From a virus: DNA of 24,192 nt. The stretch is taken from positions 1 to 24,192 of the IMG/VR virus record IMGVR_UViG_3300028228_000470, one strand, 5' to 3'. Positions 837-21,199 of this stretch are shown here, piece by piece. Positions within the stretch are counted from its first letter, which is position 1. Each line of letters begins with the position of its first letter. The notes under the pieces were generated by a model. The model did not search any database. It had not been told where the DNA came from and saw only the letters and a program-made list of their open reading frames with translations. Position numbers and translations under genes: made by a program.

Positions 837-2321
837 ATGGGATTATTTGACCGCTTTAGCCGCAAAACTGTTACTGCTCGACGCATTCATTCGCCCAATC
901 CGCATACACACATGGGGGTACGGAGCGCTGGATTTTTTAGCAAGGACGTTGGCCGACTGCTGTCCGGCTGGGAAACCGATAGCAGCTCTATTGATTATTA
1001 TTTACAGGCGGAACTGACAGAGCTGCGGGCGCGATCTAGAAAGATGGTTCGCTCTAATCCGTATGGCAAGCGGTTCATCGCAACGATTAAGTCTAACGTT
1101 GTCGGCCCTGTTGGTATTGGCATTCAGGCACAGAGCTTGATGGGCATGAACCTCGACACATCAGCAAATGATGCGATCGAAGCGGCTTTCAAAGATTGGG
1201 CACAAAACCATTGCGACTATCGGGGTCGGACTAATTTTGTCGATATGCAAAACCTCGCCATCAGTTGCGCGGGGCAAGATGGTGAGTTTCTTTTTCGCAA
1301 GCACCACGGCAAGAGCGCTGGCGCGTATGGATATTCTCTTGAATGTATCGACCCTGAGCTACTGGATACACGCAAGAACACGCCTACACGTAACGGGCAA
1401 ATCCGGCTTGGCGTTGAATATGACGCATCCGGTCGGATTATTCAGTATCACTTCCGCTCCCGGAATGCTGACGGTACCTATGGCCACCAGAACGGCTACA
1501 TCATTAGCGCGAAAAATATCATCCATGGCTTCATCGCTGAGTGGCCGGATCAATCGCGTGGTGCTCCGTGGATGCACAGCAGCCTGGAGCGATCAAAGCA
1601 CTTAGAGAAGTATGAGGAAGCTGCGATTGTAAAGGCTCGAAGCACTGCGGCAACGATGGCCGTCATGCGGACGCCGGCAGGCGAGCAGGGATACGAGGGC
1701 GAGGAGGACGGAGGAGACGGCATTACGCTTGATGCTTTTGAAGCGGGCACAATCAAAGACATAGGCAACAGGGAAATAACTAATCTCGATTCGTCCTATC
1801 CGCACCAGATGTATGCGGCCTTTGTTAAAAGCCAATTACAGGGCATCGCATCAGGTCTGGGAATTTCTTATCACTCGCTATCGAACGACCTTGAGGGCGT
1901 CAACTACTCGTCCATACGATCAGGGGTTTTGGAGGATAGAGAAGTATACAAAGGCTTGCAGAGCTGGTTTATCCGCTCTTTTATGCGGCCAGTGTACGAG
2001 GAGTGGCTGTCATACGCTTATATGTCCGGCGCTATCAAGATCAACACGCGCCCACTGGCTCGGCCTATTCAGCAATACATGCCTGCCCACTTTCAGGCAA
2101 GGCGCTGGGCGTGGGTAGACCCGCTTAAAGACGGCAACGCCAACAAGCTGGCGATTGATTACCGACTGAAATCACACTCCCAAGTCATGCGCGAGCAAGG
2201 GGATGACCCTGATTCTGTTTGGCGAGAAATTGCGAGAGATCAAGACATGATGAAGCAGTTAGGAATTGCGCCCATTGCAAGTCCTGAACAACCTGTTACC
2301 GAGGAAATACCCGATGCCTAA
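837..2321 (+). CDS. Phage portal protein (lambda gpB type)
   Basis: 494 residues, the usual size of lambda-type portals. The N-terminal segment with a tyrosine/leucine-rich helix and RARSRKMVRSNPYGKRFI, followed by an IKSNVVGPVGIG strand, is characteristic of the family. So are the later HGFIAEWPDQSRGAPW clip region and the LEGVNYSSIRSG motif. The portal forms the dodecameric DNA channel at one capsid vertex, docks the terminase during packaging and later the tail connector. The gene starts one base after the preceding stop and overlaps the protease-capsid start by eight bases. No broken or missing segment is seen. Confidence 0.93.
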   Translation: MGLFDRFSRKTVTARRIHSPNPHTHMGVRSAGFFSKDVGRLLSGWETDSSSIDYYLQAELTELRARSRKMVRSNPYGKRFIATIKSNVVGPVGIGIQAQSLMGMNLDTSANDAIEAAFKDWAQNHCDYRGRTNFVDMQNLAISCAGQDGEFLFRKHHGKSAGAYGYSLECIDPELLDTRKNTPTRNGQIRLGVEYDASGRIIQYHFRSRNADGTYGHQNGYIISAKNIIHGFIAEWPDQSRGAPWMHSSLERSKHLEKYEEAAIVKARSTAATMAVMRTPAGEQGYEGEEDGGDGITLDAFEAGTIKDIGNREITNLDSSYPHQMYAAFVKSQLQGIASGLGISYHSLSNDLEGVNYSSIRSGVLEDREVYKGLQSWFIRSFMRPVYEEWLSYAYMSGAIKINTRPLARPIQQYMPAHFQARRWAWVDPLKDGNANKLAIDYRLKSHSQVMREQGDDPDSVWREIARDQDMMKQLGIAPIASPEQPVTEEIPDA

Positions 2322-4164
2322 AAGCAAAAACACGATTGAGGCCATGCCACTGGAGCGAACTTTTACTATACAAAGTCGCGCAATGGATGATGAGGCTCGA
2401 ACAGTAGAAATTTCCTTCAGTTCCGAAGAACCCTACGAGCGGTATTTCGGAACTGAGGTTTTAAGCCATAACCCGCAAAGTGTGCGGCTTGCCCGTCTGA
2501 ATGGCGGCGCTGCGGTTTTGGTGAATCACGATTCTGGCGATCAAGTCGGTGTCGTGGATTCTGCTCGTATTGATGGCGACATGAAGGGGCGGGCCGTGAT
2601 CCGCTTCAGCAAGTCGCAGCGAGGGCAGGATGTTTTTCAAGATGTGAAGGACGACATTCGCCAGCTAGTGTCCGTGGGTTATCGAATCCATAGATACGAA
2701 ACGGTGGAGCGTGAGGGTATGTCTGACCTTGTAACCGTCACGGACTGGGAGCCTTTCGAGGTTTCGATCGTCGCTATTCCGGCTGATGCCACTGTTGGCG
2801 TTGGACGATCCGCAGAAGAATTACTTGAAACTAAAATCAAAGCCAAACAAAAGGAAGTTCACATGGAAACTATCAAAGAAGAAGTACAGGTTGAGGCGGT
2901 CACTTTTGACGCTACAGCAGAGCGCACCAAAATACGCACAGAAGAAAAGAACCGCACAGAAGCTATTCGCGGCCTTTCTGATTTGCATGATCTTGGCGAT
3001 CTCGCAAAGCAGGGAATTAGCGAAGGCTGGAGCTTGACCGATTTCAACAAAAAAGCGCTTGAAGTAGTAGGCGAGCGAAACCAAAAAGCGCGCACTGAGT
3101 CACGCCATTCTGGTGAAGTTGATCTCTCTCCGAAGGATCGACAAGAGTTCAGCATGATCCGATTGATGGATGCCATCAGCAATCCCAATGATAGATCAGC
3201 ACAGAATCGCGCAGGTTTTGAGCTGGAAGTTTCAGCCGAATCACAGCGCGGATTTGGTAGCGACTTTAAGTGTCGTGGTGAGTTTGTGCCTGACAGCTTA
3301 CTGTCTGGCAAGCGTGACTTGTCAGCCGGTATAGCTACAGACGGCGCTGAACTGGTTGCCAACAACCTGCTGGCAGATAGCTACATTGAGGTGCTCAGAA
3401 ACGCTATGGTGACCGCTCAGGCGGGTATTACTATCCTGCCCGGCTTGATTGGTAACGTTGCGATTCCTCGCCAAACTTCTGGCGCTGCATCAACGTGGAT
3501 CAGCGCTGAAGATGGTGACGCTACCGAAGGTGAAGCACAGTTTGATCAGGTCACACTGACGCCGAAAGACTTGGCGTGCTACACCGAAGTCACGCGCCGC
3601 TTGTTGTTGCAATCAACTCCCGCAATTGAGGGTATTGTTCGCCGCGACTTGGCTATGGCTCAGGCGCTTGGCATTGATAAAGCTGTGCTTTACGGGACGG
3701 CTGCGTCAGGTCAGCCGCGTGGCATCAAGAATCAGACAGGTGTGCAAACGCTTGATCTGGCCGCAGCTAGCCCAACCTACGCGGAAATCATCATCATGGT
3801 TCGCAAAGTGCTGGCGGGTAACGCGCTGACAGGTACTCCGCAGTGGTTGATAAGCCCGGCGGGCTGGGAAGCACTGAGCACTACGCCCAAGCAAGGCTCT
3901 GGTGTTGAGGGCAATTTCATCCTCGGAGAAAATAACCGCATTGCCGGTTATGAGCGACAGGTGTCCAACCAGGTGACCACTGAAGAATATTTCTTCGGTG
4001 ATTTCTCTCAGGTGATGCTTGGCGAGTGGGGCGGTTTGGAGATCAATGTCGATCCCTTTACCCAGAGCCTGAAAGGCCGAATCCGTTATATCACTTTTAA
4101 GACTTGTGATGTTGCGGTACGTCAGCCTGGCTCATTCTGCTACGCGCACGATGGCATAGTGTAA
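2314..4164 (+). CDS. Fused HK97-type prohead protease and major capsid protein
   Basis: One 616-residue frame carries two functions that are usually separate. Residues ~10-165 are an HK97-type (S78) prohead protease. The catalytic His is in LVNHDSG (H72), the Ser in RQLVSVGYRI (S120), and the domain closes with WEPFEVSIVAIPADA. Residues ~185-300 are a charged, helix-rich scaffold-like delta region. Residues ~345-616 are the HK97 capsid fold (for example TEVTRRLLLQS, YGTAASGQPRG, and a C-terminal QPGSFCYAHDG). The start chosen has GAGGAAA upstream at 2301-2307. The longer frame from 2266 lies inside the portal gene. The protease would cut the delta region during head maturation and release the capsid. 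A strong internal start also exists at 2863. A terminator-like hairpin follows. Confidence 0.92.
   Translation: MPKSKNTIEAMPLERTFTIQSRAMDDEARTVEISFSSEEPYERYFGTEVLSHNPQSVRLARLNGGAAVLVNHDSGDQVGVVDSARIDGDMKGRAVIRFSKSQRGQDVFQDVKDDIRQLVSVGYRIHRYETVEREGMSDLVTVTDWEPFEVSIVAIPADATVGVGRSAEELLETKIKAKQKEVHMETIKEEVQVEAVTFDATAERTKIRTEEKNRTEAIRGLSDLHDLGDLAKQGISEGWSLTDFNKKALEVVGERNQKARTESRHSGEVDLSPKDRQEFSMIRLMDAISNPNDRSAQNRAGFELEVSAESQRGFGSDFKCRGEFVPDSLLSGKRDLSAGIATDGAELVANNLLADSYIEVLRNAMVTAQAGITILPGLIGNVAIPRQTSGAASTWISAEDGDATEGEAQFDQVTLTPKDLACYTEVTRRLLLQSTPAIEGIVRRDLAMAQALGIDKAVLYGTAASGQPRGIKNQTGVQTLDLAAASPTYAEIIIMVRKVLAGNALTGTPQWLISPAGWEALSTTPKQGSGVEGNFILGENNRIAGYERQVSNQVTTEEYFFGDFSQVMLGEWGGLEINVDPFTQSLKGRIRYITFKTCDVAVRQPGSFCYAHDGIV
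2851..2865 (+). promoter_or_regulatory. Internal ribosome site and in-frame ATG for capsid alone
   Basis: AAGGAAG at 2851-2857 sits five bases before an in-frame ATG (2863-2865, residue M184 of the fusion), exactly at the protease/scaffold junction. Translation from here would give a 433-residue delta-plus-capsid protein without the protease. This could supply the large excess of capsid over protease, as overlapping C/Nu3 starts do in lambda. Confidence 0.55.
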
Positions 4165-4176
4165 ACCTGTTGTATT

Positions 4177-4198
4177 GGGGGCTTCGGCCCCCCTTTTT
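4177..4198 (+). terminator. Strong rho-independent terminator after capsid gene
   Basis: GGGGGC stem (4177-4182), TTCG loop (4183-4186), GCCCCC stem (4187-4192), then C and TTTTT. It lies 13 bases after the capsid stop and ahead of the next gene. It may lower expression of the head-tail genes relative to capsid, or stabilise the upstream mRNA. Confidence 0.85.
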
Positions 4199-4218
4199 CT
4201 TTTTAAAGGATTTAACCA

Positions 4219-4461
4219 ATGGATTCACCACTACCAAAAACTATCCGATTACTTACTTCCACAATTTGCGGCGGCAAAACTGTTCAATCTGGGGAGACTG
4301 TTGATGCCAGTGTGTATGACGCGAGTTATCTTGTGGCAACAGGCTCGGCTGTTTATGCCGACAAGCCAGAAAAGGCAGTCAACAAGGCAAAGAAAGAAAA
4401 GAAGCTACCGAATCGAATGATCGCTGATGTGCAGGTTAATAATCGTGACACTGGCGAGTGA
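4219..4461 (+). CDS. Small conserved head-region protein
   Basis: 80 residues, with AAAGGA as ribosome site. The N-terminal half (IRLLTSTICGGKTVQSGETVD) resembles small phage proteins found after the capsid gene that begin with a short beta-rich domain. The C-terminal half is lysine-rich and probably disordered. Position between capsid and the FII-like protein suggests a head or connector accessory role. No catalytic motif is visible and the function is unknown. Confidence 0.7.
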   Translation: MDSPLPKTIRLLTSTICGGKTVQSGETVDASVYDASYLVATGSAVYADKPEKAVNKAKKEKKLPNRMIADVQVNNRDTGE

Positions 4462-4738
4462 TATTTTAAGCGATCTGTCTGACGTATTCCTGACTGATTT
4501 TGCTGTGACTGTGACAGCAACAACATGGGGCACAGCGCCGCTCGCTATTTTTGATAATGATTATGTTGAATATAACGACGTGTCAACGGTCGCGCCTTTC
4601 TTACTGATGAGGGATTCTGACGTTTCAATCAGTGCGAGGAGTGGCGATTTGTTCACGGTTGATTGCATTAACTATAAGCTGGTAGACAAGCAGTATTTCG
4701 ATCCCAGTATGACCCGAATTATTCTGGGGCTTGTATGA
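4445..4738 (+). CDS. Head-tail joining protein, lambda gpFII-like
   Basis: About 97 residues from a GTG start (MTLASDILSDLSDVF). An ATG at 4427 in the same frame would add six residues but overlaps the upstream gene more. The short N-terminal helix followed by a beta-barrel with APFLLMRDSDV, ARSGDLFTVDCINYKLVD and a final YFDPSMTRIIL strand matches the gpFII-type head-tail connector layout. It would attach to the head completion protein and offer the surface to which the finished tail binds. The stop overlaps the next ATG. Confidence 0.7.
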   Translation: MTLASDILSDLSDVFLTDFAVTVTATTWGTAPLAIFDNDYVEYNDVSTVAPFLLMRDSDVSISARSGDLFTVDCINYKLVDKQYFDPSMTRIILGLV

Positions 4739-5313
4739 AAGTAGAGTTTAGGTCCGACAACAAAAAGCTGCAACGACATCTCAGGGAATTGAGCGAGAAA
4801 CACGCGCCCGCTGCTCAGTCGTTTGCGCTAAACAGCACGGCGGCTTATATCAAGCGAGAGGCCGTCAAGATTGCGTCGAAAGCTACAGGCGTGCCTACCA
4901 CGATATTAAAGAACAGGATTGCAGTACCACGGGGTAAAAAGTCTACTATTCGCGGCCTCAAGACTGTGATTTTCGGAGGGCTGTGGCCGGTAAAGGTTGC
5001 CAAACTAAAGCCAGCTCCCAGAAAGCTAAAAAGTGGGGCGGTAAAATACAAGACAATGAAGGGTGAGCCGGTTAACGCCAATGCATTTATGGGCAAGAAC
5101 ACCAATGGCTCAGACAGTGTTTTTGTCCGAAAGGGTACGGCAAGATTGCCAATCAAGAACGTGACTGTAGAAATTGGCCCGCAAGTAGAGCGAGCAATAC
5201 AGGGATTTTCTGGCGGCCAACTAGCTAAAGACAAATACAGCAAAATGCTTTTTTCTCAAATGGATAGGCGCGTTCGTGGAGGATTGATTCGCATGGGCGT
5301 TAAAGTCACATGA
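4735..5313 (+). CDS. Minor tail protein Z-like (tail completion)
   Basis: 192 residues, the same length as lambda gpZ, in the gpZ position between the FII-like and U-like genes. The strongly basic protein has an N-terminal helix with AYIKREAVKIASKATGVP, then IKNRI/VPRGKK and a C-terminal helix with conserved KMLFSQMDRRVRGGL. The family acts late in tail completion and helps make tails able to join heads. It overlaps both neighbours by four bases (ATGA), consistent with translational coupling. Confidence 0.85.
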   Translation: MKVEFRSDNKKLQRHLRELSEKHAPAAQSFALNSTAAYIKREAVKIASKATGVPTTILKNRIAVPRGKKSTIRGLKTVIFGGLWPVKVAKLKPAPRKLKSGAVKYKTMKGEPVNANAFMGKNTNGSDSVFVRKGTARLPIKNVTVEIGPQVERAIQGFSGGQLAKDKYSKMLFSQMDRRVRGGLIRMGVKVT

Positions 5314-16122: not shown

Positions 16123-16653
16123 ATGAACTGGAAAGACGTAGGCGGATGGCTGAAGGAGAACGCAGGCTCTGGCACTGCACTCGTTGGCTCGCTACTAACA
16201 GGTAACGTGCCTGGCGCTGTTGCTGCTGGTGTTGCGCTTGTGTCCAGTGCAACCGGCAGCACTAATCCTAATGATGCACTGGCGGCGCTACAAGGCGATC
16301 CTACGACAATGATACGGCTGAAAGAGCTGGCGATTCAAGATGAAGCCAGTATTCGGGCGCATCTTGAAACAATGACGCGCATGGAGCTTGAAGATCAGCA
16401 GGCTTCGCACGCGACAACACAGGCCACTATCCAGAGCGGCGACAACGCAGAGGATAAGTTTGTGCGCCGCACGCGCCCTGGGCAGAGCTGGCTGAGTTTG
16501 GCCGCAGCAATCGCCTACGTTTTTGCTCTGCCAGACCCGTCGATTGAAATCCTCGCCGCGCTGCTGGCGCTGCCGCTTGCGTATGCTGGCCTCAGGCAGA
16601 TTGGCAAAGGCTTTGATTCTGTTGGGCGAACAATCGTGGGCAAGATAAAATGA
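16123..16653 (+). CDS. Holin, 3-TM GTA-release type
   Basis: 176 residues starting MNWKDVGGWLKENAGSG, one base after the lysozyme stop. A longer upstream extension of the frame lies inside the lysozyme gene and is rejected. It has a hydrophobic N-terminal segment (TALVGSLLTGNVPGAVAAGV), a central charged helix, then DKFVRRTRPGQSWLSLAAAI and another hydrophobic stretch (ILAALLALPLAYAGL). The FVRRTRP motif before the membrane segment is typical of the GTA_holin_3TM family. It would form the membrane lesion for lysozyme exit. No spanin gene is recognisable downstream. Confidence 0.8.
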   Translation: MNWKDVGGWLKENAGSGTALVGSLLTGNVPGAVAAGVALVSSATGSTNPNDALAALQGDPTTMIRLKELAIQDEASIRAHLETMTRMELEDQQASHATTQATIQSGDNAEDKFVRRTRPGQSWLSLAAAIAYVFALPDPSIEILAALLALPLAYAGLRQIGKGFDSVGRTIVGKIK

Positions 16654-16678
16654 AATACTTCGTTGCACTCGCTGCTCT

Positions 16679-16787
16679 TTAGTTATCCGCGATATTGCGG
16701 TTTGAATTTGTCGGTAAAGTGGCAAGGTCAGGGCCGACCGGGAGAATCCCAATCCGCATAACCCCTTCCTCGCCATAAATCACTCAT
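16679..16787 (-). pseudogene. Possible tiny gene, one-base frame change
   Basis: Minus-strand ATG at 16787 follows GGGGGTGATTT. The frame reads MSDLWRGRGYADWDSP and then stops early. Dropping one G (CC at 16738-16739 on plus) continues it as VGPDLATLPTNSNRNIADN to a TAA at 16679-16681, 35 residues. Support is weak: the open frame is very short, though spacing and the recurring start motif match the neighbouring leftward genes. The plus strand also has a 10-codon frame (ATG 16650) ending at a TAG, not supported as a gene. Otherwise 16654-16798 holds nothing I recognise. Confidence 0.28.
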
Positions 16788-16798
16788 AAATCACCCCC

Positions 16799-16987
16799 TC
16801 AATCCTGCACACTAATAGGATTGTATAAAATGGCCTGTAAGCGACCCTGCACTATCTGCAACTGTGCGCGGCTCATATCGACAAAACACCCGCATCGGCC
16901 GTTTGTACGCATTCCTCGACCGTTATCATTGACTATGCACGAGCCGTTAGAGCAGCCCGTAAAGCCGTGAAAAAGAGTCTCTCTCAA
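16799..16987 (-). CDS. Small cysteine-rich hypothetical protein
   Basis: 62 residues from a TTG start that overlaps the upstream stop (TTGA). The Cys-rich core GCSNGSCIVNDNGRGMRTNG followed by RCGCF looks like a small metal-binding or knuckle-type protein common among phage early genes. The C-terminal half (SRAQLQIVQGRLQAIL) is helical. It is the last convincing gene of the leftward operon. Function unknown. The start is uncertain because TTG is rare, but the overlap with the preceding stop supports it. Confidence 0.55.
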   Translation of the reverse strand: MRETLFHGFTGCSNGSCIVNDNGRGMRTNGRCGCFVDMSRAQLQIVQGRLQAILYNPISVQD

Positions 16988-17279
16988 GTTTTTCTTTGCT
17001 CCAGCTCCTCGATGCTATTCTTAAAAATCCACGAGCGCATTTGTTTCCACAGGTGATCTGGTTTGCTTGTCTCGCCAAATCCATCGTCATTCATCAGCAT
17101 TATCTCTAGCACAACCGCCTCGCGTATGAGCCGATTTCCTGGCATCGCGTCTAGCGCCGAAAGCATGTCGCGCAAGAAACAACTCGCCCCCTTTTGCCCC
17201 TGATAGACGAGGACAAGGGGCCACGCCAGCGAATCAGCGCCCAAGAATCGCAGTCGTCTGAATATCCCGCTCTGCTCAT
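16984..17279 (-). pseudogene. Conserved phage protein (MSRxGYSDD type), frame broken at G5
   Basis: The ATG at 17279 with AGGAG upstream gives MSRAGYSDDCDSWALIRWRG, a start I recognise from a widespread small phage protein family, followed by SIRGKRG. The frame then leaves the family. Adding one G to the G5 run (CCCCC at 17187-17191 on plus) continues it as ASCFLRDMLSALDAMPGNRL, exactly the family continuation, to a TGA at 16984-16986, 98 residues. Function of the family is unknown. It overlaps both neighbours by four bases. A TTG-initiated 86-residue frame (17244 to 16984) is only the 3' part. Confidence 0.7.
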
Positions 17280-17645
17280 AAATTACTCTCCTGCTCTATG
17301 TCGGGACCAAACGTATCACTCATAACCCACTCTCCAGCGCTGTTTTTAGCCTCGCCTGAACCATAAATAGATTTGCCACCAAGTATGCCTGAGAATGAGA
17401 CCTCGCCAGACTCGTTAATAGACAAAAGAGAATACGTCTTGGGGCGAATTACTCCACTCCAGTTCTATGTACCCGTCCTCCGTGTATTCTGCGCTGTATT
17501 CCCAAAGGCTGGCACTCCCCGCCTCAAGCTCCTCGATGCGCTCTGCCGCTTCGATCATCAGGGCCGTGTCGCTGCCCCAGGCAATGCGCTCGCCAAGGGA
17601 AATGCTATCCGCTTTCGATTTCAGTCGGTCTTTTAGGTCACTCAT
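17276..17645 (-). pseudogene. Hypothetical protein, frame broken at T4; 76 aa as read, 122 aa restored
   Basis: ATG at 17645 with GGCAGGAGAGTGATTT upstream. As sequenced it reads 76 residues (MSDLKDRLKSKADSISLGER; MIEAAERIEELEA coiled helix; DGYIELEWSNSPQDVFS) and stops at 17415. Removing one T (AAAA at 17424-17427 on plus) extends the beta-rich part as LSINESGEVSFSGILGGKS and GEWVMSDTFGPDIEQE to a TGA at 17276-17278 that overlaps the next ATG, like the rest of the operon. An N-terminal helix plus beta C-terminus suggests a two-part protein. Function unknown. Confidence 0.65.
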
Positions 17646-17660
17646 AAATCACTCTCCTGC

Positions 17661-17785
17661 CTAGTTTGCTATCTCGACGACACAGATGTCGTCGACATCA
17701 TTCTGTATTCCCAGTAATAGGGTGGTGAGGCCGCTGCGATCATCCGCACAAATGGCACTTGATTGTCACGCAGAAGCCTCGCCAT
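17661..17785 (-). pseudogene. Tiny hypothetical gene, frame broken at T3
   Basis: ATG at 17785. The frame begins MARLLRDNQVPF. Adding one T (AAA at 17750-17752 on plus) continues it as CADDRSGLTTLLLGIQNDVD and DICVVEIAN to TAG 17661-17663, 41 residues. As sequenced, the same 5' end instead runs on as a frame rich in Ser/Thr/Arg that is not convincing. The GATTTATG start context is shared with neighbours. An 8-bp perfect inverted repeat (17675-17682 with 17687-17694) lies in the coding 3' end. Function unknown. Confidence 0.45.
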
Positions 17786-18036
17786 AAATCGTGCCAAAGA
17801 ATGTCGGTGTTTGTGTCGGTGAGCTGTCGATACATGGGCAATCAGACACCGACAGACGCTGTAAGCTGCTGATAAATAACGACACAGATCGACAGGGGAC
17901 ACTAAGCCACGGGTTCGAGTTATGCGACCCATCAACATGGACCGGCGTCATAACGGTTGGCCCGCGCTCTGCAGTGCCGTCGTAGTAGTAGCCACAACTT
18001 GTGGTGGTCGTTTAGGTCGCATAGTTTATTTTTCAT
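17766..18036 (-). pseudogene. Hypothetical gene, frame broken at A3 (89 aa restored)
   Basis: The ATG at 18036 overlaps the stop of the upstream repeat-protein gene (ATGA). As sequenced it reads MKNKLCDLNDHHKLWLLL and stops after 34 residues at 17932. Removing one A (TTT at 18011-18013 on plus) joins MKNKLCDL to TTTTSCGYYYDGTAERGPTV and MTPVHVDGSHNSNPWLSVP, open to a TGA at 17766-17768. The middle section looks protein-like. The last ~20 residues overlap the next gene. The opposite strand is also open here, so the call is tentative. Function unknown. Confidence 0.4.
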
Positions 18037-18728
18037 GCAGCAGTCTTCCCAGGCTTTTCGGCAGTAACCGCTTCCCTGATTTTTTCAGATGCCTCACACG
18101 CATCAGCAACCCACTCCGGAGGCTCTCGCTTGCTATCTCGAAGGGTCTCAAGCATCCATCGTTCGGTGCTGGTCCACTTGTCATCTTTGAGTAAGTTGAT
18201 GACCTTTTTCAAAACGCGAAAGCACAGCGCGTCATAGCAGCCATTGCTGATATCCATGCCCAGCCTTTCCTGCCAATAATCCCGCTGCCAGGCAGCTGGC
18301 AACACGCGATTTATGTAATATCTTTCTGGTAGGTGCGGCATCGATGCGTGCGACCAGATCAGGTCACCAGAGATAAAGAGGTATTCGCCACTGCAGTCCA
18401 GGTTTCCACTGCAGTCCAGGTAGCCACGGCAGTCCAGGTTGCCACGGCAGTCCAGGTTGCCACGGCAGTCCAGGTTGCCACTGCAGTACAGGCTGCCACG
18501 GCAGTCCAGGTAGCCACGGCAGTCCAGGTAGCCACTGCAGTACAGGTTGCCACTACAGTACAGGTAGCCACCGCAGTACAGGTAGCCTCCAACGACAATG
18601 CCTGCGATTTCTTTGCCAGCGGAGTAAGGCACGTCGCATTGGATGCGCAAGTCACCTTCAATTCGAATGACGCCGTCTTTGCTGCGAAGCGCCAGAAGTT
18701 CGTCTGTGGTTTTAACAATCTTTTCCAT
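18033..18728 (-). CDS. Cysteine-ladder hexapeptide repeat protein
   Basis: 231 residues from ATG 18728 (AAGGG upstream). A longer frame reaching 18815 lies in the upstream gene. N-terminus MEKIVKTTDELLALRSKDGV, then 11 consecutive hexapeptides of pattern (Y/N/S)-L-(Y/D)-C-(R/S/G)-G at ~51-116. Hydrophobic Leu and Cys alternating with Gly turns suggest a beta-solenoid with stacked Leu and Cys ladders. The C-terminal ~100 residues are helical (YYINRVLPAAWQRDYWQERL; RVLKKVINLLKDDKW) and end in a charged tail. Family unknown to me. The fold resembles polymer-forming beta-helix proteins only in general pattern. It is co-transcribed with the recombination genes and coupled to the next gene by ATGA. 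Confidence 0.85.
   Translation of the reverse strand: MEKIVKTTDELLALRSKDGVIRIEGDLRIQCDVPYSAGKEIAGIVVGGYLYCGGYLYCSGNLYCSGYLDCRGYLDCRGSLYCSGNLDCRGNLDCRGNLDCRGYLDCSGNLDCSGEYLFISGDLIWSHASMPHLPERYYINRVLPAAWQRDYWQERLGMDISNGCYDALCFRVLKKVINLLKDDKWTSTERWMLETLRDSKREPPEWVADACEASEKIREAVTAEKPGKTAA
18388..18585. repeat. 11 tandem 18-bp repeats (coding, minus strand)
   Basis: Eleven back-to-back 18-bp units with consensus CCACGGCAGTCCAGGTAG on plus, varying mainly at positions 5-6, 11 and 16-18. They encode the hexapeptides of the Cys-ladder protein on minus. Several units are nearly identical (three consecutive CCACGGCAGTCCAGGTTG), so copy number can probably change by slippage or recombination without breaking the frame. 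Confidence 0.95.
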
Positions 18729-18729
18729 T

Positions 18730-19092
18730 TTATGACCCTTGGGTTTCGGTGATCGATAGGTCGGGCAGATCGAATGCGTCGATCCGCATGCCATGTTTGA
18801 ATTCAAACAAACCAATCCCGTACCAGCGATACCATGCGCGCTCTACGCTCGATATGCTGTACCCCGTTGCTCGCGCTACAATCCCAGCATAGGGCTTACG
18901 CTGTACAATAAGGGCATCACAGCGGCGCTTACGCTCGGCATCGCGCAGAGCCGAATAGGTGGTTCCCTCATTCCGCAGCATTCGGCACATATCATTTTGC
19001 CGCATAGATAGAGCCTCCGCCGTTGCTGCCAGCGTTGCGTTTTCAAGCGGCACGGCGCTCAGGTAGTGCTGTATCGTTTCTGTTGTTTTCAT
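18730..19092 (-). CDS. AraC-like DNA-binding protein (HTH domain only)
   Basis: 120 residues. Residues ~20-60 (TAEALSMRQNDMCRMLRNEG, then TTYSALRDAERKRRCDALI) and ~70-95 (GIVARATGYSISSVERAWYR) match the two helix-turn-helix motifs and linking helix of an AraC/XylS C-terminal domain, including the RNEGTTYS turn. The usual ligand-binding domain is absent, so it is a stand-alone DNA-binding domain. It may regulate phage or host promoters. Its ATG shares one base with the stop of the coiled-coil gene upstream, and its TAA is one base from the next ATG. Confidence 0.75.
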   Translation of the reverse strand: MKTTETIQHYLSAVPLENATLAATAEALSMRQNDMCRMLRNEGTTYSALRDAERKRRCDALIVQRKPYAGIVARATGYSISSVERAWYRWYGIGLFEFKHGMRIDAFDLPDLSITETQGS

Positions 19093-19967
19093 CAGTATTT
19101 AATCCAAAAAGCGGGGACTTTGTTTTCTGCAATTGCAATAACAACGGCCTTAGCCTGGGACTCACTTATCTTTGCGTGCTCTATTAAGGCAGCCATTGCC
19201 GCACGATTTATTTTTACTTTGTGCGCCCGGTTAGCCATGCGCTTTTCAGTTTCTGCGTGCTCTGCTGCCTCCTTATCCCGCTGCGCCTTTTCTGCTGCTT
19301 CGGTGGCAGCGACTTTGGCCCGTTCGGTGGCTTCTTCTGCTATCTTTTCTTCGCGCTCAGTGCGTGCTTTTTCTCCAGCCGCCACGCGCTCGGCCTCGGC
19401 ATCAATAGCTGCTTTTTCTTGCGCCTGCAATCCAAGCAGCATCGGCTCTAAAAGTTGCAGCGACCTGTCTTTATTGAGTGCTGCCAGCGCCTCAAACTCT
19501 CCATAACTATCGTCGATTATGCGCGACTTAATCGCCGTGATCCTGTCCTGCACAACGCTAGACGTTGGCGCTATTTGGAATTCAGCGAGATCACGAAACT
19601 CTGACGCTCTACGCAATAAATCATCTTGCACCGCTTTTAGCGCCGCTTCGTGATCTGAGATTTGCGACTTGATGCCATCTTGGAGGGTCAGTAGCTGATC
19701 TTTGATTCGCTTGCGCTCACCGTCTAGCAGATCAACTCTCTCTTTCAGCGGCGCTTTAATATCTTTGTGAGCGCCGTCCAGCTTGGCGATTACCTTTCCG
19801 ATGGCGAGCTTATCAGATCGCGCCTGCTTGTCCTGCTCTGGCACAGTGAGATCATAAATAATTCCTTCGTAACGATCTTTGTACTCGGACAGATTTTTTT
19901 CAAACTCCCGAAATTCAACTATTTCAGTGCTTGTGATTGCTGGTAATAATTCCGCTGCGTTTGTCAT
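19092..19967 (-). CDS. Coiled-coil protein associated with phage recombinase
   Basis: 291 residues, almost entirely helical. Residues ~15-60 contain EFEKNLSEYKDRYEGIIYDL and QDKQARSDKLAIGKVIAKLD, a pattern I know from coiled-coil proteins next to phage exonuclease/annealing genes. Residues ~195-255 are a highly charged Ala/Glu/Lys/Arg coiled coil, and the C-terminus (ALIEHAKISESQAKAVVIAI, then AENKVPAFWIKY) looks like a small folded domain. No catalytic motif. It overlaps the recombinase stop by four bases, so the two are made together and may interact. Role unknown. Confidence 0.75.
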   Translation of the reverse strand: MTNAAELLPAITSTEIVEFREFEKNLSEYKDRYEGIIYDLTVPEQDKQARSDKLAIGKVIAKLDGAHKDIKAPLKERVDLLDGERKRIKDQLLTLQDGIKSQISDHEAALKAVQDDLLRRASEFRDLAEFQIAPTSSVVQDRITAIKSRIIDDSYGEFEALAALNKDRSLQLLEPMLLGLQAQEKAAIDAEAERVAAGEKARTEREEKIAEEATERAKVAATEAAEKAQRDKEAAEHAETEKRMANRAHKVKINRAAMAALIEHAKISESQAKAVVIAIAENKVPAFWIKY

Positions 19968-21199
19968 GCTGATTTCCTTTTTGTCATTAATGTTTTCATC
20001 GTGTTTTCCAGCGCCACCAGCTCGCTATTAAATAGCGTTATTGCGTCTGCCATTTGTTCAATGTCCTTTTCGTTCCGTGGTACTCGGCAAATAAATAGCT
20101 GTAGCCCTTCCGGTAGCCGGTCATCGAAGCTGATAAAATCGTTCCAATCGCGTCCCGTGCACCACATTTGATGCTGCTGCTGCCAGTAGTATTTCGAGTC
20201 AGCCTTGCCTGATTGCAAAGTGGCAATATGCGTGGCGCTGTTGGGGCACTTAACTTCACCGACACCATTGCCGAAAACAAGGCAGTCAGGGCTTGTTCCA
20301 GTGTAATCAAGTTGCGGGTGAACAATGAAGCCAACGTCCTGCACCAGTAATCCCGTTTCGATCTCATAAGCAGATTTCGCAAGCGGCTCCAGGTCTATTC
20401 CGCGCTGCATAATCGCGTTAGTGTATGTTTCTTCCCGCTGACCTGTAAGCCGCTCACAGAGCAACTGCGCCATGTAGTTTTTACGCGATGCACTAGGCTC
20501 ATTGCCTCGGCCCTTCGCCATCACATCGCTTACGCGGCTGCTAGTGATCTTGCCAATTCGAGCAGAAAACCAATCTTCTGAACCTTGCAAATTATTCACT
20601 GGTTTTTGCCTCCTTAAAAACTCGGCTTTTTTAACATCCTTCACGGCGGTCAATTCTTCCCGAGCGCTAGGCGGTAGGCTGTGATAAAGCATTTTGAAAG
20701 TCGCGGCTAGCTCGTCGATGTTCGCCGCGTTTTTCAATTGCTCTAGCTCCTTGCTGATGTCCAGCTCCGCAGTTCGGCTTTCGTCGTTCTCGCCTGTTTC
20801 CAAGCTGAAAGTTTTCAGAATGGCGTATTTAACAGCGTAAGACATAGCCTTGCCGGGCGCTTTGTCGCCGTTGTCGTTAGCGTGAGCATTGACAGTGGTA
20901 GTGCAGCTATCGTCAGGCTTATCTATATTGACAAAGTGGACAGCATAATCGCCTGCGTAAAGGTGCATTTTAATGTCATTCTTTAGGTCTCTGGCCTGCA
21001 ACAGCTCGCTGCGTAACTGCTCAACACGCACAACAATACCTGCCTTGACCATTTCTTTGCGAAGCACAGCTATAACCATATCGTGACTTACGGCTTTGTA
21101 GGTGCCGCCAGCACCGGCTGATACGCTTGCATCCTTTTGGACGTACTCAACCACTTTCATTACTGCATTGATGCGCTGGTAGATATTCATGTCATTCAT
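19964..21199 (-). CDS. ERF annealing protein fused to YqaJ-type exonuclease
   Basis: 411 residues from ATG 21199 with GAGGA upstream. A longer frame to 21295 is inside the membrane-protein gene. Residues ~5-145 match ERF single-strand annealing proteins (GTYKAVSHDMVIAVLRKEMV; HFVNIDKPDD; APGKAMSYAVKYAILKTFSL; ETGEND). A helical linker (~145-200) leads to a YqaJ/lambda-exonuclease domain: SEDWFSARIGKITSSRVSDV, RGIDLEPLAKSAYE, and the PD-(D/E)xK site with D305 (TSPDCL) and E315/K317 (GEVKCPN). It would resect double-stranded ends and anneal the exposed strands, combining exo and SSAP functions in one chain. No stop or frame break lies between the domains. Confidence 0.9.
   Translation of the reverse strand: MNDMNIYQRINAVMKVVEYVQKDASVSAGAGGTYKAVSHDMVIAVLRKEMVKAGIVVRVEQLRSELLQARDLKNDIKMHLYAGDYAVHFVNIDKPDDSCTTTVNAHANDNGDKAPGKAMSYAVKYAILKTFSLETGENDESRTAELDISKELEQLKNAANIDELAATFKMLYHSLPPSAREELTAVKDVKKAEFLRRQKPVNNLQGSEDWFSARIGKITSSRVSDVMAKGRGNEPSASRKNYMAQLLCERLTGQREETYTNAIMQRGIDLEPLAKSAYEIETGLLVQDVGFIVHPQLDYTGTSPDCLVFGNGVGEVKCPNSATHIATLQSGKADSKYYWQQQHQMWCTGRDWNDFISFDDRLPEGLQLFICRVPRNEKDIEQMADAITLFNSELVALENTMKTLMTKRKSA

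Follow-up and report, generated by a model that had tools for sequence, protein, structure and literature searches.

Lambda Red and the SynExo recombinases combine an annealing protein, which carries an exonuclease-binding C-terminal domain, with an exonuclease of the lambda type, and the two associate as separate proteins (PMC8303780, PMC7496540). How the trimeric exonuclease and the multimeric annealing protein of lambda Red reach a complex with a subunit ratio of 1:1 is an open question (PMC7496540). Annealer-exonuclease pairs of the ERF type are present in Pseudanabaena phage Pam1 (gp40-gp39), in MW202713 and in Sinorhizobium phage phiLM21 (gp09-gp08), in all cases as two genes in different frames with overlaps of 4 to 8 bases. 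Pseudomonas phage PS-1 encodes an annealing protein with a RecT/Bet core instead of an ERF core, and its annealing and exonuclease genes are likewise separate and overlapping. LHK-Exo and lambda exonuclease are stand-alone enzymes with separate annealing partners. A natural fusion of ERF to a nuclease-like domain occurs in bacteria, where ERF and a DUF968 (HNH-like) domain share one frame; its nuclease part belongs to another family than the one described here, and a separate YqaJ gene lies nearby.

The window analyzed here is a viral contig of 24,192 nucleotides (IMG/VR record IMGVR_UViG_3300028228_000470), in which an ERF protein and a lambda-type exonuclease are encoded in one open frame (Table 1). 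Domains, gene order, strand and exonuclease start are all as in Pam1, MW202713 and phiLM21, with the difference that the two parts lie in the same frame. The SynExo two-component recombinases are defined by two separate polypeptides; the locus as assembled has a single open frame and thus, on paper, a single chain. The ERF-YqaJ joining is probably a rare, minimal and recent form of an otherwise ordinary two-gene system, with a one-base sequencing error as the less likely alternative. In the literature searched, mostly outside subscription journals, no description of a natural ERF-YqaJ fusion was found, and earlier reports may exist.

Table 1. Features of the joined ERF-exonuclease frame and its neighborhood (positions in the window).
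Feature	Position	Strand	Remarks
Joined ERF-exonuclease reading frame	19964..21199	(-)	411 aa, ATG start, no internal stop (translation)
ERF core, residues 6-144	20768..21184	(-)	PF04404; possibly Rad52-like fold by model
Three-helix tail, residues 145-194	20618..20767	(-)	resembles RecT/Bet C-terminal tails; predicted helices
T5 run	20616..20620	(-)	with one T fewer, ERF stops with TAA at residue 194
Shine-Dalgarno site TAAGGAGG	20609..20616	(-)	perfect; read in frame within L195-R196-R197
In-frame GTG, residue 201	20597..20599	(-)	apparent native exonuclease start; position matches starts in relatives
Exonuclease	19964..20599	(-)	211 aa if begun at GTG; PF09588
Overlapping next gene, 291 aa	19092..19967	(-)	phrog_1376, 4.7e-40; coiled-coil-like by composition
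120-aa gene	18730..19092	(-)	weak resemblance to AraC-type HTH; relative in ERF locus L190

Domains of the joined frame

The preliminary description had claimed a single uninterrupted frame of 411 codons that joins an ERF and a YqaJ domain. Translation of 19964-21199 (-) bears this out, and both domains exceed the curated Pfam cut-offs: ERF (PF04404) matches residues 6-144 with E 2.8e-9 and 37.6 bits (cut-off 25), and YqaJ/lambda-exo (PF09588) matches residues 209-350 with E 3.3e-24 and 86.3 bits (cut-off 22). PHROGs concurs, with an Erf-like ssDNA annealing protein at residues 2-193 (2.5e-17) and an exonuclease at residues 200-408 (1.7e-47). The order in the chain is ERF core, helical tail, a joint of six residues and exonuclease.

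In the AlphaFold model of the ERF part (ERF rows), a core rich in beta strands leads into a tail of three helices. PDB matches of this model comprise many RAD52 chains and phage Gp77 and are modest (E about 1e-3, TM about 0.4). The tail shares 50% identity with the tail of PS-1 Bet, and the PS-1 exonuclease is 53% identical to the exonuclease half. By inference from the C-terminal domain of Redbeta (PMC8303780), the tail is presumed to be an exonuclease-docking domain; a profile search did not reach the Redbeta domain of 6m9k. A helical tail of this kind is common to ERF and RecT/Bet proteins with closely related exonucleases (window 20618-20767 (-); locus L188, 1967-2704; L010).

The two halves of the protein have different nearest relatives. 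The closest ERF cores are about 60-68% identical, and their exonucleases, where the pair was read, are just 38-43% identical. The closest exonucleases reach 58-59% (L009 and L010), and the ERF proteins beside them are weakly similar. Because these identities point to different relatives, the protein looks like a mosaic of an ERF core and a tail-exonuclease module that is also found with RecT/Bet cores, which suggests that annealing cores have been swapped onto this module. That the tail accompanies the exonuclease whether the annealing core is ERF or RecT/Bet suggests a modular principle for the construction of recombineering pairs.

LHK-Exo (3syy, E 8e-59) is the nearest relative of the exonuclease half, followed by lambda exonuclease (1avq, 6m9k); both have the family and fold of this half, and their catalytic D/E/K residues align with it. 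The structural model of this half matches 3syy with 48% identity at 1.0 A; the full-chain fold was built from the exonuclease rows only, and its ERF part, being of low confidence, was disregarded. The PD-(D/E)xK residues D305, E315 and K317 (fusion numbering), which had been described as intact, are indeed invariant in all 35 aligned sequences and would be catalytic by homology. With the narrower model TIGR03033 of NCBIfam (lambda-exonuclease family protein) the protein scores 58.3 bits, below the curated cut-off of 68.05.

The joint and its occurrence among relatives

On the coding strand the joint reads GAT GTT AAA AAA GCC GAG TTT TTA AGG AGG CAA AAA CCA GTG AAT AAT TTG CAA. The Shine-Dalgarno site TAAGGAGG is separated by nine bases from GTG 20599, and the anti-SD pairing energy of this codon (-12.1) was reached by none of the 178 other internal ATG, GTG or TTG codons in the genes of the window; the values for the ERF start and the next gene are -5.9 and -5.6. 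Exonucleases of related phages begin at the matching point, with MIEQRSDAW in Pam1 and MKIVDFPQGSQEW in MW202713, compared to (M)NNLQGSEDW here. ERF proteins with a similar tail terminate close to position 194, at most a few residues away (RKKEITNG* in L010, RKKEFTA* in L009, KKAEF here). Since the Shine-Dalgarno site, the ends of the relatives' ERF proteins and the starts of their exonucleases all align here, LRRQKP (residues 195-200) reads as a ribosome-binding site and spacer translated as codons, and not as a dedicated linker. A free exonuclease is probably made from GTG 20599 as well, because no other start tested has a ribosome-binding site as strong as the one retained here. The earlier proposal that the fusion fixes a 1:1 stoichiometry is thereby weakened.

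For the survey of relatives 349 loci were collected from viral contigs, bacterial genomes and phage records; these are samples, some loci were fetched repeatedly, and other collections may contain further fusions. The exonuclease is present in 332 of them, together with an ERF gene in 179 and with a Bet-like gene in 93. Among 225 distinct co-located annealer-exonuclease pairs no fusion was detected, and only the frame of the window itself holds both full domains. Annealing gene and exonuclease occupy different frames in 192 of 193 distinct close-neighbor pairs, and none of the 193 is fused; the sole in-frame pair, from phage JBD44, still has its stop codon. Given the lack of a fused relative in the 225 pairs and the frame offset in all close pairs except this one, the fused state appears to be derived. 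Sampling 398 genomes of the phylum to which a Pseudomonas genome belongs gave 26 ERF and 50 YqaJ matches, none of them in a common frame. A second phylum, represented by 289 genomes, contributed ten ERF matches; none of their frames exceeds 325 aa, which leaves no room for a fusion of this kind. The fused architecture, whose frequency the preliminary description had left to be counted, is therefore rare. Of the 406 records that match the protein in a collection of annotated phages, only two reach a coverage of 80% or more, and in these the two parts are separate genes. An exact search of viral contigs with the junction DNA found no second copy, and DNA-level relatives among phages and plasmids were limited to an exonuclease stretch of 149 bases with about 70% identity.

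Several candidates for further fusions were discarded. In L268 and L175 an open extension runs out of frame over a separate ERF gene. In L160 a frame-broken Bet with its tail runs into the exonuclease; this locus (3243-4807, Candidatus Pantoea persica) has the C-terminal tail of the frameshifted Bet in frame with the exonuclease and the look of a degraded prophage. Bacterial ERF frames with lengths of 407-434 aa turned out to be ERF with an HNH/DUF968-like domain. This architecture, in which the DUF968/HNH-like domain is C-terminal to ERF, is found in L180 to L185 (three from genome G117, two from G371, one from G041), of which L181 and L185 were assigned by Pfam and the others by eye.

Origin of the uninterrupted frame

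The reading that we favor, with somewhat better than even confidence, is a two-gene cassette that has lost its frame break and now gives the fusion and, as expected, a free exonuclease. Against it stand the occurrence in a single contig, the fact that the fusion hinges on one homopolymer base, and the intact signals of a two-gene system. As in-frame ancestors are rare, an indel is the most likely origin of the fusion, with the T5 run as the simplest site. Loss of a stop codon by substitution is possible, TTA, CAA and AAA in the joint each being one change away from a stop, but less likely with just one of 193 close pairs in frame. An indel in T5 fits mutation and sequencing error alike, and because one base separates the joint from an ordinary two-gene layout, it is either recent or erroneous.

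Homopolymers are the usual place of indel errors. A sequencing or assembly error would mean that the true phage has two genes: an exonuclease begun at GTG 20599 and an ERF that stops at the Shine-Dalgarno site or 8 bases inside the exonuclease. Four T in place of five let ERF end with GAG TTT TAA directly before the Shine-Dalgarno site, and one additional base gives the overlap of 8 bases, a layout present in 10 of 90 near pairs. The absence of any fusion among the 225 distinct relatives and the still intact Shine-Dalgarno site and GTG point in the same direction. However, T5 is a short run, and about ten other genes of the window (including portal, capsid-protease, neck, tail terminator, head-tail joining and minor tail genes) match their profiles in single, mostly full-length stretches without a frame break, where several breaks would be expected from an indel-prone platform. 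For this reason a real sequence is favored: by judgement rather than computation we regard the base in T5 as likely to be real, and an error as the less likely alternative, though a serious one.

It is improbable that the protein is an old, established single-chain recombinase whose fusion was selected for itself. All parts are intact, the prediction extends the final helix of the tail through residue 198 into the joint, and ERF-DUF968 sets an example of another natural ERF-nuclease fusion; yet there is no dedicated linker, no second member was found in the survey and the two-gene expression signals are unchanged. Slippage of ribosome or polymerase on a real frame, with separate ERF as the main and the fusion as a minor product, is slightly more improbable still, since A6 and T5 runs just before the Shine-Dalgarno site and stops a few codons from the joint in both other frames are offset by the shortness of the runs, the lack of an in-phase canonical slippery heptamer (sequence read by eye) and the lack of supporting conservation.

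Proposed function and neighboring genes

Under the favored reading of a lost frame break, the ancestor would have been a standard phage cassette of an ERF annealing protein followed by a lambda-type exonuclease, and the break would have been lost probably recently. Two products would result, the fusion of 411 residues and the free exonuclease from GTG 20599. The exonuclease, presumably a trimer like lambda exonuclease, would resect 5' ends, and the tethered ERF would be loaded onto the newly exposed 3' strand, with the docking tail held beside the exonuclease by the fusion. Mixed trimers of free and fused subunits could ease the crowding that arises as ERF forms rings or filaments. We infer from the sequence that both products may be made and that the fusion may be functional. 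A natural single-chain annealer-exonuclease with additional free exonuclease, in which ERF assemblies carry tethered exonuclease in a ratio set by translation, is a tentative proposal that we hold with more doubt than trust. If true, it would offer a ready-made construct for studying the cooperation of a trimeric exonuclease with a multimeric annealing protein, and a natural fusion, or a phage tolerating one, would make the stoichiometry question of lambda Red testable in a single gene and three constructs.

The next gene overlaps the joined frame by four bases (ATGA at 19964-19967), as had been noted. Genes related to this phrog_1376 member turned up in 14 further loci of the survey, frequently on the upstream side of the annealing gene, and it therefore qualifies as a recurrent neighbor of the cassette. 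This recurrence makes a role as third partner, as suggested earlier for the coiled-coil protein, plausible. Further along, the window contains an ORF of 260 aa (18033-18815 (-)) with short repeats such as SGNLDCRGYLDC, which is pentapeptide-repeat-like and has a marginal PHROGs match (E 0.017). The stretch 16650-18030, which separates the minus-strand recombination cassette from the genes on the tail/lysis side, has only short ORFs. At 2266-4164 (+) one gene matches both a major head protein and a head maturation protease (phrog_617, phrog_4523, phrog_80) and by these matches represents a known kind of capsid-protease fusion.
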